Of a DNA stretch of 44,250 nucleotides, positions 2,132 to 10,470 are shown piece by piece. The DNA comes from a bacterium (GTDB lineage Bacteria > Electryoneota > RPQS01). Numbering within the stretch: position 1 is the first letter of the stretch; each line of letters begins with the position of its first letter. Under the pieces are notes generated by a model, which did not search any database, was not told the DNA's origin, and saw only the letters and a list, made by a program, of their open reading frames with translations. The position numbers and the translations under genes are program-made. The stretch spans positions 1-44,250 of the forward strand of contig JAHJDG010000210.1 of NCBI GenBank assembly GCA_018812265.1, written 5' to 3'.

Positions 2132-4264
2132 ATGCACATTATCGCAAGATGTCTGATTTGGGCGGCGGCACTTGCTTTGGCCGGTTCGGTGTTGGGGCAG
2201 AGTTGGACGTGGCAAAGCCCGCAGCCGCAAGGAAACTATCTGAACGACGTCGAAATCTTCGCCAATGGAACGGGCTGGGCGGTGGGCACATGCGGTGCCA
2301 TCCTGCACACCACCGACGGCGGACAGAACTGGTCGGCGGAGCAGATTGATTCCGGTCTGGATTTCTCGGCGGTGGATTTCGCAAATTCGAGTTGTGGCTG
2401 GGCCTGCGGCACGGAACGGCGACCGAGTGGTTCACGAGCGGGAATCATGTGTACCACGGACGGAGGGGCGAGCTGGGTCGTTCAATATGAGAGAACCTCC
2501 GCCAATATGAAAGACGTGTTCTTTGTGAACGAACAGCTCGGATTCGTGCTTGCCCAGGATTATGACATCAGCGGCAGCGTCGTTTTGCGAACCACCGACG
2601 GCGGCGCAACCTGGGTTGCGTACTTTGCCGACTCGACGGGCAGTCTGGAGTGTCTGGCCTTTGCCAGCGAGACCGTGGGCTGGGCGATTGGCTTGAAGGT
2701 GGTTCGCACGACCGACGGCGGATTGACCTGGCAGCGGACGACATATGAGTATCTCTATGGATGGGATGCGCACTTCTTTAATGAGCAGAACGGCCTGGTA
2801 ATGGGTTTTCGCCATCTCTATTCCACCGTGGACGGAGGAAGCAGTTGGAGTCAGTGGACCATTCCGCGGGAGGACAATCAATACGCTTTGAGCATGGATT
2901 TCCCTTCGTCCGAGGAAGGCTGGATCGTCGGATCGAACGGGCTGGCCCTCAACACGACGGATGGCGGAGGGACGTGGCAGCCGCGAACCATTCCGATTTC
3001 CGTTTCTTTCAGCGGGGTATCCTTCACTAACGGTCAGACCGGCTGGGCCGCCGGGCAGGGCGGAAGGATTTTTCACACGGATAACGGCGGGTTGTCGTGG
3101 ACTCTTCAGGCCGGAGTGCGAATCAGCGAACGCATTCTATATGGTGTGGATTTCGCGGATTCGGTCTCCGGTTGGATTTGCGGGAATCGAGTCATTCTTC
3201 GCACGACGGATGCGGGAGTCTCATGGATCCATTGCCGCGAGGATTCCACCCTCGGCTATGCCGATATTGAAAGCATCGCCCCGAATGAAGCGTGGGCCGC
3301 TCTGTCTCGCGACTCGCTGATTCACACCACCGACGGCGGCACGACGTGGGACGCTCGCTTTGTGGGTGTTCACACGATTGAACGCCTGCAGTTCGTGTCA
3401 CCCGATACCGGTTTCGTTCTCAGTCATTCGGGGATCGCGCGGACCGTCAACGGTGGACAGACGTGGGAGTACACGGAGGTGGAACTTCCCGGCTGGAACG
3501 CGTTCGGAATGTGCTTCGTGGACGGCAACCGTGGCTGGATCGGCGGCGGCAAACCGGGATTCATCCTCCATACAACGGACGGCGGACTCAGTTGGACGAC
3601 ACAATACTTCGACAGCACGTGGGGCGAAACCATCATCGAGGATTTGTCCTTCAGCGATTCCCAGAACGGCTGGGGAGTGGGTTGGTACAATACCGTTTTT
3701 CACACGACCGACGGCGGCCAGACCTGGATAGAGGAGGACGTCGGTTCGAGTTCTTCCCACACTCGGGTTTGTTTCACCGACGTGGATCATGGATGGGTTG
3801 TTTCCGAGAATGCCGGACGGACATTTTACACCACGGATGGTGGAGAGACGTGGAATGTGACCGCGGCGGCGGTTGATGGAGGTCTGTTTGACGCCTGTTT
3901 CCCGGATGCGCGGCATGGGTGGGCGGTCGGCCGGGAGGGCGTGATCGTTCGCTGGGAGAACACAACCACTCCGGTAAATCCGCGTCCCGAGTCGGCGCTG
4001 CCTTTGTCCTGTTCGCTCGCGGCCTATCCCAATCCTTTCAATCCGCGGACAAACGTGGTGTTCGAGATTCCTTTAACCGGCCGGATTCAACTGCGGGTGT
4101 TCGACGTAACGGGCCGCCTCGTGCAGACCATCGCCGATCACGTGATCCCGGCAGGTAGCCATACGCAGGTTTTCGACGGCTCTCATCTGCCGAGCGGAAT
4201 TTACTTCGTTCAGCTTCGCGGAACGGATTTCGGAGTGACGAAGAAGCTGGTTCTTTTGAAATGA
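2132..4264 (+). CDS. Secreted YCF48-like beta-propeller protein with T9SS sorting domain
   Basis: A signal peptide (about residues 1-22, ending VLGQ) leads into about 13 repeats of roughly 45 residues, each ending in an (H/R)TTDGGxTW-type motif. This is the BNR/YCF48-like (PSII stability factor-like) propeller repeat. The last ~85 residues are a T9SS type A sorting domain (AYPNPFNP, GRLVQT, LPSGIYFVQL, KKLVLLK), so the product should be exported and anchored at, or released from, the cell surface. GGAGG at 2121-2125 sits 6 bases before the ATG. This is the first gene of the operon running to 10470. Its second repeat has a plain loop (TERRPSGSRAG) where the next two genes carry an in-frame UGA. 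The ligand is unknown. Confidence 0.85.
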   Translation: MHIIARCLIWAAALALAGSVLGQSWTWQSPQPQGNYLNDVEIFANGTGWAVGTCGAILHTTDGGQNWSAEQIDSGLDFSAVDFANSSCGWACGTERRPSGSRAGIMCTTDGGASWVVQYERTSANMKDVFFVNEQLGFVLAQDYDISGSVVLRTTDGGATWVAYFADSTGSLECLAFASETVGWAIGLKVVRTTDGGLTWQRTTYEYLYGWDAHFFNEQNGLVMGFRHLYSTVDGGSSWSQWTIPREDNQYALSMDFPSSEEGWIVGSNGLALNTTDGGGTWQPRTIPISVSFSGVSFTNGQTGWAAGQGGRIFHTDNGGLSWTLQAGVRISERILYGVDFADSVSGWICGNRVILRTTDAGVSWIHCREDSTLGYADIESIAPNEAWAALSRDSLIHTTDGGTTWDARFVGVHTIERLQFVSPDTGFVLSHSGIARTVNGGQTWEYTEVELPGWNAFGMCFVDGNRGWIGGGKPGFILHTTDGGLSWTTQYFDSTWGETIIEDLSFSDSQNGWGVGWYNTVFHTTDGGQTWIEEDVGSSSSHTRVCFTDVDHGWVVSENAGRTFYTTDGGETWNVTAAAVDGGLFDACFPDARHGWAVGREGVIVRWENTTTPVNPRPESALPLSCSLAAYPNPFNPRTNVVFEIPLTGRIQLRVFDVTGRLVQTIADHVIPAGSHTQVFDGSHLPSGIYFVQLRGTDFGVTKKLVLLK

Positions 4265-4313: not shown

Positions 4314-6488
4314 ATGAAGAAGCAAATCTCGTTTGTGGTGTGTCTCGGTATCTTGGTGGCGGCTCCGTTTGCGAGTGCCCAAAATTGGCAATGGCAGAAT
4401 CCGCTGCCGACCGGCAATTATCTGAGCGACGTCGTTTTTATCAACGAGAACGTCGGCTGGATCGTCGGTAGCAGTGGTACGATTCTCCATACCACGGATG
4501 GCGGCGCATCGTGGACTCATCAGGGGAGCGGCACCAATTCCGAATTGACGGCGATCGGATTCTTCGACAGTCAGCGTGGTTTCGCCGTCGGCGGAGAGTC
4601 GGGTTGAGGACCCGGCGGCTGTGAGGTTCACAGCCTAATTCTCCGCACCACCGATGGCGGTGCACTCTGGGAAACGGTGTACCGCGACACAACGCAGATT
4701 CTCACCGCAGTCGCCTTGGCTGATGATCTTCACGGCTGGGCAGTGGGCCGTTTCGGGACGGTCGCTCGCACCACCGACGGCGGCGAAAACTGGCAGGCCT
4801 TCGATCTCGGTACCAGTACGCATTTGTACGGCGTCGAGTTTACGAATCCCCAGAGCGGTTTCATCGTCGGCCTCAACGGTGTGCTTCTCCACACCACTGA
4901 TGGCGGCGATACATGGGCGTATCAGGACAGCGGAACCGAGCGGTTCCTCTTCGCCTCATCGTTTGTCCTTGACTCGGTGGGCTGGGTGGTCGGCTACGAC
5001 TTGAACGAACCTGCCGGCATTATCCTGCACACGACCAATGCGGGCCAGACCTGGTTGCCGCAGGATGCCACCACCAATCGTCGTCTCCTGGACGTGAAAT
5101 TCGTCAATGACTCGACCGGCTGGATCGTGGGAGCGTCGGGAATTATTCTCCATACCACGAATCGCGGCGAAACCTGGACGTGGCTGACGGAAGGCTATCA
5201 AGAGGATATCTCCGCCCTCTGCCCGGTCAGCCGGAACGAGGCTTGGGCTGTCGGAGGGGGTGGAACCATCCGACACACGACGGACGGCTGGTTGGGTTCG
5301 GACTATCAGAATCACGGACCGAGGTACGATCTGCGCGACGTGGTCTTTCTGGATGTCGAACAAGGCTGGGCGGTCGGCTATGACTATGATTTGTCGCTGG
5401 GCATGGTTATGCACACGACCGATGGCGGAGACACCTGGCAGGCGCGGCCGTGTTCCGTTCTCACGGCTTGTCAAGGAATTTCCATGACCGACGCCCAACG
5501 CGGCTGGTGCGTCGGGTCCCATCGTATCGCGCGCACCAACAATGGTGGAACGAGTTGGGAACTTTCGTACTCGGATTCAACGATGTGGATGCGGGATGTG
5601 CATTTCATTGATGATCAAACGGGTTGGGTGGTCGGATGGGAAAGCTGGTACTACGATGCCAGAATCCTGCATACAACGAACGGCGGCCTGAACTGGAGCG
5701 AACAGACGGTGGACAGCGACTTCGGACTCTTGGATGTGGAATTCCTGGACACTCAGAACGGCTGGGCGGCGGGAAATATCGGTTCGATTCTTCATACGTC
5801 CGACGGCGGGGAAACGTGGATCGAACAATACGGAGAAGGATACCACACGTTGTACAGCTTGGATTTCACCGATCACCTGCACGGCTGGGCGGTCGGCTAC
5901 GACGAAGAGTACGTGGAGTCGGTGATCCTGCACACCGACGACGGCGGTGACACATGGAACATGCAGTTCGCGGCTGAAGATATGGGTCTCACCGGTGTCA
6001 GCTTCGCGGATGTTCTACATGGGATTGCGGTCGGTCCGGCGGGCGTTGTCCTGCGAACCGAGAATGGCGGTCAGTCGTGGACACGGGAGAACAGCGGGTG
6101 TGGCAGTGATCTTGCGGCGGTATCCCTGCTTCCATCGGGTTATACTTGGGCGGTTGGATCCGCCGGTACCATTCTGCACTCGGAGGGTCCGGCTTCCGTT
6201 CCGCCTTCGCACCGGGACATCATCCCACGCAGCATTTCGTTGACCGCCTATCCCAATCCATTCAACTCGCAAGCGGTGATCGAGTACGACGTGCCGCTGT
6301 CCGGTTCGGTGAAGCTCGCGGTCTACAACGTCAACGGCCGTTTGGTTGAGACGCTCGTGGATCGTGTTCTTCCCGCCGGATCGTACGCGAAAACTTTTGA
6401 CGGCTCTCGTTTGCCGAGCGGAATATATTTTACGCACTTGCAAGCGGCCCGGCGCTCGACAACGTACAAGATCGTGTTGCTCAAGTAG
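4314..6488 (+). CDS. Putative selenoprotein: secreted YCF48-like propeller with T9SS domain, Sec at residue 98
   Basis: Read through the UGA at 4605-4607, this is a 724-residue protein. It has a signal peptide (residues 1-22, PFASAQ), about 13 TTDGG-type propeller repeats and a T9SS sorting domain in the last ~85 residues. The UGA falls in the second repeat, between the VGG strand and LILRTTDGG. The frame continues for 23 codons with no start codon and then over 600 more, and repeat 2 is complete only if the UGA is read. The local protein is G-U98-G-P-G-G-C103-E-V-H106-S. A perfect hairpin follows 9 bases after the UGA. Many ordinary genes here stop with UGA, so a general codon reassignment is unlikely. 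A nonsense mutation is the main alternative, but the next gene repeats the arrangement. The gene starts 49 bases after the previous stop. Cargo and redox or metal role are inferred only. Confidence 0.82.
4605..4635 (+). promoter_or_regulatory. In-frame UGA with bacterial SECIS-like hairpin (first copy)
   Basis: UGA at 4605-4607 is followed after 9 bases by GGCTGTGA (4617-4624), GGT, and TCACAGCC (4628-4635), a perfect 8-bp inverted repeat. Drawn with a 7-bp stem the loop is AGGTT and begins 16 bases after the UGA. From family knowledge, bacterial SECIS elements are stem-loops just 3' of the UGA inside the coding sequence, with a G in the first loop positions. The E. coli fdhF loop is AGGUCU at a nearly equal distance. 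Direct SelB binding is inferred. Confidence 0.8.
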
Positions 6489-6521: not shown

Positions 6522-7802
6522 ATGGCTGTCCGAATCTGCGGCTTCATTCTCTTCGTCGGTTTTCTGGCGTGTTCGGCGATGGCCCAGGAATGGCATCGGC
6601 TCGCGCCGTCTCCCCAGAATCGTGATCTGCGTTCGATCACGTTCACCGAGAGCGGCGTCGGTTGGGCGGCGGGCGACGGCGGCACGCTGCTCTGTTCCAC
6701 CGATGACGGACTTTCGTGGGTATCGCGTCCGATCGGCACGTCGGCCATGTTGCTTTCGGTGTTCTTCCTGAATGAACAAGTGGGCTGGATCGCCGGAGGA
6801 GCCGTCTCGGGCGGCGGGTGAGGGGGCGGCGGCTGTGAGTCTCACAGCACCCTTCTTCACACGACCGACGGCGGATTATCGTGGACGGCAACCGATGCTC
6901 TTGAACTGGGTGTCCTGCGCAAAGTGGTCTTTGTCAGTGCGACGGACGGTTGGCTGCTCAGCGCGACGCATGACGGTACGAATTGGATCAGCGCCGTTCA
7001 TCGCACCACCGACGGCGGCGCGACGTGGATCGTCCAATACGAAGTGAACGGCTGCCGGCTCATGGATATGGTGGTTACCGGTCAACAAACGGTGCATGTC
7101 GTCGGCTTCGACGGTCGCTATCTGTCCACCGCTGACGGCGGCGACACGTGGGCACAGCGTACCACCGGTCTGAGCGGCCCGCTGATTGGAGTGTCCTTCA
7201 CCGACAGCCTCACGGGTTGGGTCGTGGGAGAGGGCATCTTCCATACGATGGATGGCGGAGAAAGCTGGACGCGGAAGGACGAAACGAATCATCCCCTGCT
7301 GTTCAAGAGCTGCTTCCCCAGTCCGCAGATGGGATGGGTAGTCGGAGACCGCGGCGCCATATTTTACACCACCGACGGAGGAGCGAGCTGGGCCGATCAA
7401 ACCTGCTCATCGGTTTACGGTCTGAATGCCGTCTGCTTCCGAAGCGAGACCGACGGCTGGGCGGTGGGCGGCGGGGGGCCGATGTTGCACTATTCCGATC
7501 CCGATCAGACGGACCCGGTTGCTCGCGATGTAAGCGTCCCCGGCGAATACCGCGTGACGGCGTTTCCCAATCCGTTCAATGCTCAGACCACGCTCGCGCT
7601 CGAGATTCCAGTCACCTCTTCTGTCCGCGTGTTTGTCTATGACGCGACGGGGCGAATCGTAGAGATTCTCGCCGATCGTGTTTTAACGGCGGGACGGCAC
7701 AGTGTGAGCTTCGATGCTTCGCGCCTTCCGAGCGGGATGTACTTTGCGCGATTGCAGGCGGGAGATCAATCCCGTGTACATAAACTGGTCCTTGTGAAAT
7801 GA
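6522..7802 (+). CDS. Putative selenoprotein: short YCF48-like propeller with T9SS domain, Sec at residue 100
   Basis: Read through the UGA at 6819-6821, the product has 426 residues: a signal peptide (about 1-21, ACSAMAQ), six TTDGG-type repeats and a T9SS sorting domain (AFPNPFNAQ ... LPSGMYFARL ... KLVLVK). The UGA again falls in repeat 2, in G-U100-G-G-G-G-C105-E-S-H108-S, followed by LLHTTDGGLSW. The 34 codons from the UGA to the first possible restart (GTG at 6924) contain no stop. The ATG at 6522 is chosen because a G-run (about 6509-6513) precedes it by 8 bases and the signal peptide starts cleanly there. A GTG at 6501 is possible. It follows the previous gene closely, and its stop overlaps the trmO start (ATGA). 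With half as many repeats as its neighbours it is a smaller paralogue. Confidence 0.82.
6819..6848 (+). promoter_or_regulatory. In-frame UGA with bacterial SECIS-like hairpin (second copy)
   Basis: UGA at 6819-6821 is followed by GCTGTGA (6832-6838), GTC, and TCACAGC (6842-6848), a perfect 7-bp inverted repeat. With a 6-bp stem the loop is AGTCT and begins 16 bases after the UGA, the same spacing as in the first copy at 4605. The stem sequence is the same in both copies, while the loop and the bases just after the UGA differ. That pattern is expected if the structure is selected. Confidence 0.8.
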
Positions 7803-8320
7803 CGGCTGCGGAGCAAACACAAATCTTCACCGTTCGTCCCATCGGCTTTATCCGCAGTCCCTATGCGGAGCGCAAGGACATGCCGCGGCAGCCGTCCGAT
7901 TCCGATGCGCTTCCCGCCGAATTGCAGGTCCTTCCCGAGTTCCGTGCGGGACTGGCCGATCTGCAGGAGTTCGACCGCATTTGGGTCCTGGCATGGCTGC
8001 ATCAGGCGCGGCCGTTCAGCCTGCGTGTGACGCCGCCCATTGACACCGCAGAGCACGGGGTGTTCGCTACCCGTTCGCCGGATCGCCCCAATCCCATCGC
8101 GCTGTCGTGTGTTAGGCTGCAAAGCGTGAACGAAGAAACGGGAGTGCTGCGCGTCGAACGAATGGATCTTCTCGATGGAACTCCGGTCTTGGATATCAAA
8201 CCTTACATTCCCGAATCCGACGCCTTTCCCGATGCCGCCTCCGGCTGGCACGGGCGGGCGCGGCAGAAAACGAAAAGCAATCCGTCCACTCCGGACAGAA
8301 AACAGGAGTCGTCCCCATGA
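7799..8320 (+). CDS. trmO: TsaA/TrmO-family tRNA (m6t6A37) methyltransferase
   Basis: This 173-residue cytoplasmic protein of the TsaA/UPF0066 fold starts with the family signature (RPIGFIRSPYAERKDMPRQ) and carries the RSPDRPNPIALS motif around residues 97-108, which forms part of the S-adenosylmethionine site. TrmO methylates N6 of t6A at position 37 of certain tRNAs. It is shorter than the E. coli enzyme (about 235 aa) and lacks the C-terminal extension, like many homologues. Both ends overlap neighbours by the four bases ATGA, indicating translational coupling inside an operon of exported propeller proteins. That is an unexpected setting for a tRNA-modifying enzyme. Some members of the superfamily may have other substrates. 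Confidence 0.85.
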   Translation: MTAAEQTQIFTVRPIGFIRSPYAERKDMPRQPSDSDALPAELQVLPEFRAGLADLQEFDRIWVLAWLHQARPFSLRVTPPIDTAEHGVFATRSPDRPNPIALSCVRLQSVNEETGVLRVERMDLLDGTPVLDIKPYIPESDAFPDAASGWHGRARQKTKSNPSTPDRKQESSP

Positions 8321-10470
8321 GTCGCAAGATCTGCTTTTGTGTCGGTTGGCTGCTGCTCGTCGGCCAAGTGGGTCTGGCCCAGTCGCCGTGGGAGTGGCAG
8401 AGCCCCGTACCCCAGGGCAATACCCTGCAGGATGTTCAGATGTTCCCGGACGGGAACGGCATCGCCACCGGTGGAAATGGCACCCTCATGCGAACCCTTG
8501 ATGGTGGAGTGACATGGTCGGTTCTTTACGGCTGCGATAACGGCCGGTTGATCGGTAGTTCGTTCGTAAGCCCGGTGGTCGGCTGGGCGATTTGGACGTA
8601 TTGGGACGGACAAAGAGACGCGATAGAATTCTTGCACACCGCGGACGAAGGCGCAACGTGGACCCGGCTCCCGCTGCCCGATTCGGCGCGCTTTTCGGAT
8701 GTACTTTTCTTGAACGAGCAAGTGGGCTTCGTAACCGGCAGCCGAGGATATTACAGCGAGTTCGTAGCGCGCACCACTGACGCCGGAGATACGTGGCAGG
8801 AACAACTGCTGGATTCGGTGTTTGGCACGGAAGAGATATTTTTTCTTGATGACCTGAACGGGTGGATTGCCGGCTATGGAGGAATGGTTCGAACCACCAA
8901 CGGCGGCGAGTCCTGGATGGTGTTGAGCCGCGATTTTGAGAACTCAATAAGCGAAGTGCAGTTCTTCGACGAACTGAACGGTGTAGGGATCGGAGGTCGC
9001 TACTTCTATCGAACCCGCAATGGCGGAGTGTTGTGGAGTTCGATCACGCTATCCGAGGGAACAACCGGTCCCTTTACTCTGTCCCTGCATTTCGTCAGCA
9101 GCAGCACCGGCTGGATTGTCGGCAGCGGCGGCTGGATCATCGCCACTACCGATGGCGGCACCACCTGGATTCCTCAGGCATCAGGTGTCAATGACTTCCT
9201 TTATCGCGTGGCATTCACCGATCCGAACCACGGAGTGGTCATGGGTGACTACGGCCGAATCCTGCGTACGACCGATGCCGGTTCGAGTTGGAACGTGCAA
9301 GCGGGACAGCGTATAAGCGACCTCAATTTCTATGCCGTAGATTTCGCCGACACAAACTATGGCTGGGCAGTGGGGGGCATGTATTATGGCGGGCGGCTAA
9401 TCGTTCGCACGACGAATGGCGGGAATACGTGGACGGCACTGGTGAATGATCCGGACTCCTCCGCGATCGTTGATGTGGCTGCTCTCAGTCCGCTTACCGC
9501 ATGGTTTGCCGGCGGCAGTTCCGGATTAATGCTGACTACCGACGGTGGCCAATCCTTCATCCCCCAATTTCTGCCTGAAAACCGTCGCGCCGGACAACTG
9601 CAGTTCTTCAATGCGGACAGCGGTTGGATTCGCAGTGGAAGATATCTTACCTATACAACCAACGGCGGACAGAATTGGCAGGCCATCCCGACGATGACCA
9701 TGAGCGGAACCTACGGGATGTTCTTTCTCGATATGCAAAACGGTTGGGTGTTCGGAGGCAAACCAGCCACGATTGAACATACCACCGATGGCGGCTTGAC
9801 ATGGACCCGGCAATATCAGGACAGTCTGTACGGTGAGACTGCAGTCGTCGGCTTGTCGTTCACCGATCCTAACGTCGGATGGGCGGCCGTGTGGGGGCTT
9901 TCGCTTCTCCACACCACCAACGGCTGTGCAACGTGGAACTCCGTCAACATTGGCGGCTGTGGGGATTGGACGACCATGCAGTGGACGGACCCGGATCATG
10001 GCTACGTACTCAGCGATTACGAGCCGATGTGGTACACGACCGATGCCGGCACGACCTGGCGGGAGGCTCCCAACCATATCGGCTCGCGGATGATAGACGT
10101 GGATTTCCCGAATGCGAGCCACGGCTGGGTCGTGGGCTGGAACGGCACCATCGTGAAGTGGAACGGATCGGCGCTCGCCGCCGAGCCGGTGGCGCGGGCC
10201 GCGATCCCGATTCAATGCATGCTCTCGGCCTTTCCCAATCCCTTCAATCCCATTACCACGCTGGAATTCACTATACCTGTGACCACGCGAGCAAGTTTGC
10301 AGGTCTATGACATCACGGGCCGGCTGGTACAGACTCTGACCGACCGTGTGCTGCCGGCGGGAATCTACACGCAAAGATTGGATGCCTCCCGCCTGCCCAG
10401 CGGAGTGTATTTCGCGCGGCTCTCGGCCGCGGGAACGGATGTCACTCGAAAAATTGTCCTCATCAAGTGA
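8317..10470 (+). CDS. Secreted YCF48-like beta-propeller protein with T9SS sorting domain
   Basis: The 717-residue protein has a signal peptide (about 1-21, VGLAQ), then the N-terminal WEWQSPVPQGN motif shared with the genes at 2132 and 4314, about 13 repeats ending in (T)T(D/N)GGxTW-like motifs, and a T9SS sorting domain (AFPNPFNP, GRLVQT, LPSGVYFARL, RKIVLIK). Its ATG overlaps the trmO stop. AGGAG lies upstream within trmO. It has no in-frame UGA. The corresponding loop of repeat 2 reads TYWDGQRDAIEF, so this paralogue does without the Sec/Cys insertion. It is the last gene before the terminator at 10499-10532. Function is unknown; the propeller suggests binding of a protein or polymer outside the cell. 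Confidence 0.85.
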   Translation: MSRKICFCVGWLLLVGQVGLAQSPWEWQSPVPQGNTLQDVQMFPDGNGIATGGNGTLMRTLDGGVTWSVLYGCDNGRLIGSSFVSPVVGWAIWTYWDGQRDAIEFLHTADEGATWTRLPLPDSARFSDVLFLNEQVGFVTGSRGYYSEFVARTTDAGDTWQEQLLDSVFGTEEIFFLDDLNGWIAGYGGMVRTTNGGESWMVLSRDFENSISEVQFFDELNGVGIGGRYFYRTRNGGVLWSSITLSEGTTGPFTLSLHFVSSSTGWIVGSGGWIIATTDGGTTWIPQASGVNDFLYRVAFTDPNHGVVMGDYGRILRTTDAGSSWNVQAGQRISDLNFYAVDFADTNYGWAVGGMYYGGRLIVRTTNGGNTWTALVNDPDSSAIVDVAALSPLTAWFAGGSSGLMLTTDGGQSFIPQFLPENRRAGQLQFFNADSGWIRSGRYLTYTTNGGQNWQAIPTMTMSGTYGMFFLDMQNGWVFGGKPATIEHTTDGGLTWTRQYQDSLYGETAVVGLSFTDPNVGWAAVWGLSLLHTTNGCATWNSVNIGGCGDWTTMQWTDPDHGYVLSDYEPMWYTTDAGTTWREAPNHIGSRMIDVDFPNASHGWVVGWNGTIVKWNGSALAAEPVARAAIPIQCMLSAFPNPFNPITTLEFTIPVTTRASLQVYDITGRLVQTLTDRVLPAGIYTQRLDASRLPSGVYFARLSAAGTDVTRKIVLIK

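Follow-up and report, generated by a model that had tools for sequence, protein, structure and literature searches.

Does a UGA in the frame of a predicted exported propeller protein terminate translation or is it decoded as selenocysteine (Sec)? This question is raised by a locus in a window of 44,250 nucleotides (the whole stretch of DNA analysed) from the genome G000, a draft metagenome-assembled genome (MAG) of 3.5 Mb that is about 97.5% complete. The frame, gene 1, starts with ATG 4314, encounters TGA 4605-4607 as codon 98 and subsequently stays open until TAG 6486-6488 (Table 1), while mechanical open reading frame calling splits the locus into 4314-4607 and 4677-6488. The initial annotation had noted that the frame stays open beyond the UGA up to 6488, as is borne out by the translation, and had proposed residue 98 to be selenocysteine. 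With the genomic and comparative evidence considered below, UGA 4605-4607 very probably encodes selenocysteine.

The interrupted frame and the selenocysteine machinery

Translated with TGA as U, the product of gene 1 matches PSII_BNR with 201 bits and Por_Secre_tail (Pfam), whereby the sorting domain of the type IX secretion system (T9SS) also scores above the NCBIfam cut-off (TIGR04183, 40.6 versus 23 bits). The peptide around the putative Sec98 reads GFAVGGESG-U-GPGGCEVHSLILR. In comparison with the orthologue in the related genome G001, dN/dS is ~0.15 upstream and ~0.22 downstream of the UGA (dN 0.19 and 0.27, respectively, with a near-saturated dS of ~1.2-1.3). The low dN against near-saturated dS beyond the UGA indicates that the downstream part is translated.

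Table 1. Features of the locus with their coordinates in the window; assignments involving Sec are predicted
Feature	Position	Strand	Remarks
YCF48-type T9SS cargo paralogue, no Sec	2132..4264	+	Without UGA/Cys loop
Putative selenoprotein gene 1	4314..6488	+	724 aa with UGA = Sec; signal peptide, YCF48/BNR-repeat propellers, T9SS sorting tail
Probable signal peptide of gene 1, aa 1-22	4314..4379	+	MKKQISFVVCLGILVAAPFASA; from sequence, homologues with analogous N-termini
In-frame UGA (putative Sec98) of gene 1	4605..4607	+	Same codon column in five genes
SECIS-like hairpin, gene 1	4617..4635	+	8 bp, loop GGU, loop start 17 nt past UGA (16 counting AGGUU as loop)
Cys103 codon (U-x4-C) of gene 1	4620..4622	+	Within hairpin 5' arm; Cys in 5/5 members
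T9SS type A sorting domain (Por_Secre_tail) of gene 1, aa 646-721	6249..6476	+	Pfam, TIGR04183
Putative selenoprotein gene 2 (paralogue)	6522..7802	+	426 aa with UGA = Sec; signal peptide, propeller, T9SS tail; stop TGA 7800-7802
In-frame UGA (putative Sec) of gene 2	6819..6821	+	
SECIS-like hairpin, gene 2	6832..6848	+	7 bp, loop GUC, loop start 17 nt past UGA
YCF48-type T9SS cargo paralogue, no Sec	8317..10470	+	Without UGA/Cys loop

The genome encodes the complete machinery for selenocysteine incorporation, as all four genes that the initial annotation had named as a check of its proposal are present. A tRNA-Sec with the anticodon UCA (58.5 bits; selC), selB (333 bits) and selA (540 bits) are located within ~17 kb on one contig (C101) and selD (308 bits) on another (locus L029, contig C109). 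The selD gene itself contains an in-frame UGA (...LVRCAG-UGA-ASKM...), with the RCAG-U-ASK motif at the usual selenocysteine site of SelD. It is followed by a SECIS element whose stem has 8 bp and whose GGA loop, closed by a C-G pair, lies 20 nt past the UGA; this C-GGA-G loop recurs in the hairpin of the propeller gene of another relative, G004. Thus, selD as a known selenoprotein gene with a hairpin of the same build provides an internal control within G000. Both G001 and G004 possess a tRNA-Sec (UCA) and selB, while in two relatives that have no UGA forms, G003 (56% complete) and G006, neither a tRNA-Sec above cut-off nor a full-length selB match was found. As selB above cut-off is widespread in the phylum (33/39 genomes), co-occurrence of the machinery with the UGA-containing genes is necessary, not discriminating.

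The hairpin and its conservation among homologues

The hairpin of gene 1 consists of the stem arms GGCTGTGA (4617-4624) and TCACAGCC (4628-4635) around the loop GGT (4625-4627), whereby both the 8-bp stem 9 nt past the UGA and the AGGTT at 16 nt had been described correctly by the initial annotation. The published model for bacterial SECIS elements comprises a loop of 3-9 nt, a stem of 4-16 bp, a G within loop positions 1-2, a spacing of 16-37 nt and an MFE of at most -7.5 (PMC13188914). The gene 1 hairpin, for which the initial annotation had suggested a SECIS prediction, lies within every one of these constraints, as do those of all five family members. Taken alone, the hairpin is nonetheless unexceptional. 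Of all the TGAs in DNA of this genome, ~3% are followed by some stem of 8 bp or longer that is compatible with a SECIS, synonymous recoding of the five peptides reaches the observed stem in 3-8% of cases, and the fold-energy z-score of -1.1 to -2.0 was dropped as proof of a SECIS because it is too weak. Other evidence has to carry the case.

What is beyond chance is the exact arrangement of the hairpin, which five homologues in three genomes retain. In all five, the loop is G[G/U]N, starts exactly 17 nt past the UGA and has 7-9 pairs beneath it. Strictly defined (3-nt loop G[G/U]N, loop start 17 nt past the UGA, stem of 7 bp or more), the arrangement occurs just twice among the 3,243 TGAs in 104 kb of DNA from this genome, namely at the homologous UGAs 4605 and 6819. 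Four more open frames with UGA and hairpin from a generic scan of the same 104 kb were taken as chance. Of 10 matches in a pattern scan of the genome contigs, eight look like chance and those on two known contigs alone continue as YCF48 proteins.

The strongest evidence, missed by the initial annotation, is the four homologous genes that besides gene 1 carry a UGA at the same codon with a hairpin at the same spacing. At least five related putative Sec genes are thus found in three uncultured bacteria, three in G000 (UGAs at window positions 4605 and 6819 and at C200:13411), one in G001 of the same genus (MAG STB_160, contig JAQTRJ010000076) and one in G004 from another genus of the family (MAG Modern_marine.mb.187, contig JAHIZR010000211); the genomes of all members are draft MAGs. 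Around the putative Sec, the five proteins read GESG-U-GPGGCEVHS, SGGG-U-GGGGCESHS, PGYG-U-GRDRCEAHS, GESG-U-GAGGCEVHG and, in G004, ESGG-U-GPSGCAEYS, and the codon is always UGA, never UAA or UAG. A sense codon without hairpin in sister genomes, which according to the initial annotation would speak against selenocysteine, is seen in neither G001 nor G004; together with selABCD and the SECIS model, these same-site UGAs support the proposed Sec98. On the other hand, a Cys homologue exactly at the Sec site, to which the initial annotation had also looked, did not turn up in roughly 400 genomes, including those of two further phyla. To our knowledge, nearly all selenoproteins have an orthologue with Cys at the Sec position.

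With respect to the nucleotide level, all 35 pairwise comparisons (which are not independent) of codons for the same residue within the hairpin show identity, as opposed to 29-49% elsewhere in the genes. In G004, Glu-Val-His under the loop is replaced by Ala-Glu-Tyr, while pairing in the stem is preserved by a double change from A-U to C-G together with a G-U wobble. With five sequences and one double change, this covariation is not significant versus shuffles (98/500).

The third Sec paralogue of G000 (L110 561-2546, contig C200) has no T9SS tail, which is present in gene 1, gene 2 and the members from G001 and G004, and is a probable lipoprotein as judged from its lipobox-like LFVLGC; it adjoins a PorV/PorQ-family gene. 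A non-Sec paralogue on contig C2 lacks the Sec/Cys loop, as do the two in the window. Downstream of gene 2, the ATG of a gene for a TrmO-family tRNA methyltransferase (7799-8320) overlaps the terminal TGA (ATGA), so that the two genes may be translationally coupled. At least ~100 matches in G000 to the last ~100 residues of gene 1 (YPNPFN-type sorting tail) indicate a large set of T9SS cargo.

Selenocysteine versus other readings of the UGA

That the UGA is a real stop, leaving either a pseudogene or a 97-aa fragment followed by a separately started 603-aa protein (GTG 4677), would agree with the normal function of UGA as a terminator in G000 and with the two mechanically called frames. It is, however, highly improbable, as purifying selection acts on both sides of the UGA with synonymous sites near saturation, five genes in three genomes share UGA to the exclusion of the other two stop codons and with a downstream start the protein would lack the signal peptide that T9SS export requires. 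The open and homologous frame past the UGA would equally be expected if the codon were read as another amino acid, by a code with UGA as Trp or Gly, or by selenium-independent leaky readthrough. This reading is less probable still, since a tRNA-Sec (UCA) and full selA, selB and selD are present and UGA functions as a stop elsewhere, ending 4 of the 13 large open reading frames of the window as well as gene 2, sp3 and the G001 and G004 genes. Furthermore, when the full protein was compared with all six frames of G000, only three of the matches listed contain a stop, in each case UGA at the homologous codon. An assembly or sequencing error, conceivable in a draft MAG, is the least probable, as the same UGA occurs in the independently assembled MAGs STB_160 and Modern_marine.mb.187 and, within G000, in three paralogues spread over two contigs.

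If the UGA is decoded as selenocysteine, the hairpin directly 3' of it would act as a bacterial SECIS, so that SelB would bring Sec-tRNA-Sec (UCA) to the ribosome at UGA 4605-4607. The product would be a YCF48-like protein of tandem beta-propellers that leaves the cell as cargo of the type IX secretion system, with Sec98 and Cys103 at the tip of a long hairpin loop belonging to an N-terminal blade.

A probable selenocysteine-containing propeller loop

An AlphaFold2 model (mean pLDDT 81), based on eight sequences from G000 and related genomes, predicts beta-propellers, in which a long beta hairpin spans residues 89-112 and has a low-confidence tip (97-103, Sec98 to Cys103). Foldseek places the model beside GH74 tandem propellers, the T9SS protein PorZ and YCF48. 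The GH74 xyloglucanases and PorZ, although among the best Foldseek matches, share fold similarity only, with an identity of just 12-16%. The YCF48/HCF136 photosystem II assembly factors (PDB 2xbg, 5oj3, 8am5) belong to the same repeat family and fold, whereas gene 1 encodes a longer protein with a T9SS tail and the Sec-bearing loop and remains below the NCBIfam cut-off for the Ycf48 equivalog (NF010237; 225.7 versus 326 bits).

In the loop, Sec, the subsequent Gly and the Cys at +5 are invariant among the five members, and a selenylsulfide or redox role is therefore the preferred guess. That Sec98 and Cys103 form a redox-active selenylsulfide or a metal-reactive pair outside the cytoplasm is about evenly balanced between right and wrong. 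Metal binding by a U/C/E/H set was down-weighted, as CAEYS in G004 shows that Glu and His vary. As the Cys103 codon lies within the hairpin, conservation of Cys103 cannot be counted as independent support for a function of the protein; the role of their codons in forming the SECIS may partly account for the conservation of this and adjacent residues. A T9SS propeller of G003 (L067, C303:6833-7039) has CDEC (CxxC) in an equivalent kind of loop, a possible thiol counterpart of the Sec/Cys loop that lends some support to the guess of a redox role.

Gene 1 shares the in-frame UGA, a consensus SECIS and SelABCD with bacterial selenoproteins such as SelD, FdhA and the FCYXU-type TonB-dependent receptor. 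The decoding mechanism is thus standard, while the protein class is new to selenocysteine decoding. None of the 119 prokaryotic selenoprotein families in a 2026 inventory (PMC13188914) and none of the deep-Sep families (PMC12013277) is a propeller, YCF48 or T9SS-cargo protein, unlike gene 1, and none of the five members matches a selenoprotein model in NCBIfam (June 2026). Literature text searches retrieved nothing relevant for selenoprotein with YCF48 and a lone mention of selenocysteine for selenocysteine with type IX secretion.

As at least five related genes in three bacteria share UGA as the putative Sec codon, they apparently constitute an undescribed family of exported selenium proteins. 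Somewhat more doubtful than the pairing of Sec98 with Cys103 is the broader proposal of a cell-surface, T9SS-exported selenoprotein family whose propeller loop was converted into a Sec-x4-Cys device for redox chemistry or metal scavenging, with several copies arising in a single genome. The majority of the selenoproteins characterised possess a thioredoxin-like fold (PMC13188914); the selenocysteine predicted here resides in a beta-propeller repeat protein with a type IX export tail, with several paralogues in an uncultured lineage. If true, the selenoproteome would gain a new class of proteins, and one may ask why a cell places selenium in a surface-exposed loop. As standard annotation truncates genes interrupted by UGA, more such members may hide among the very numerous YCF48-like repeat proteins.
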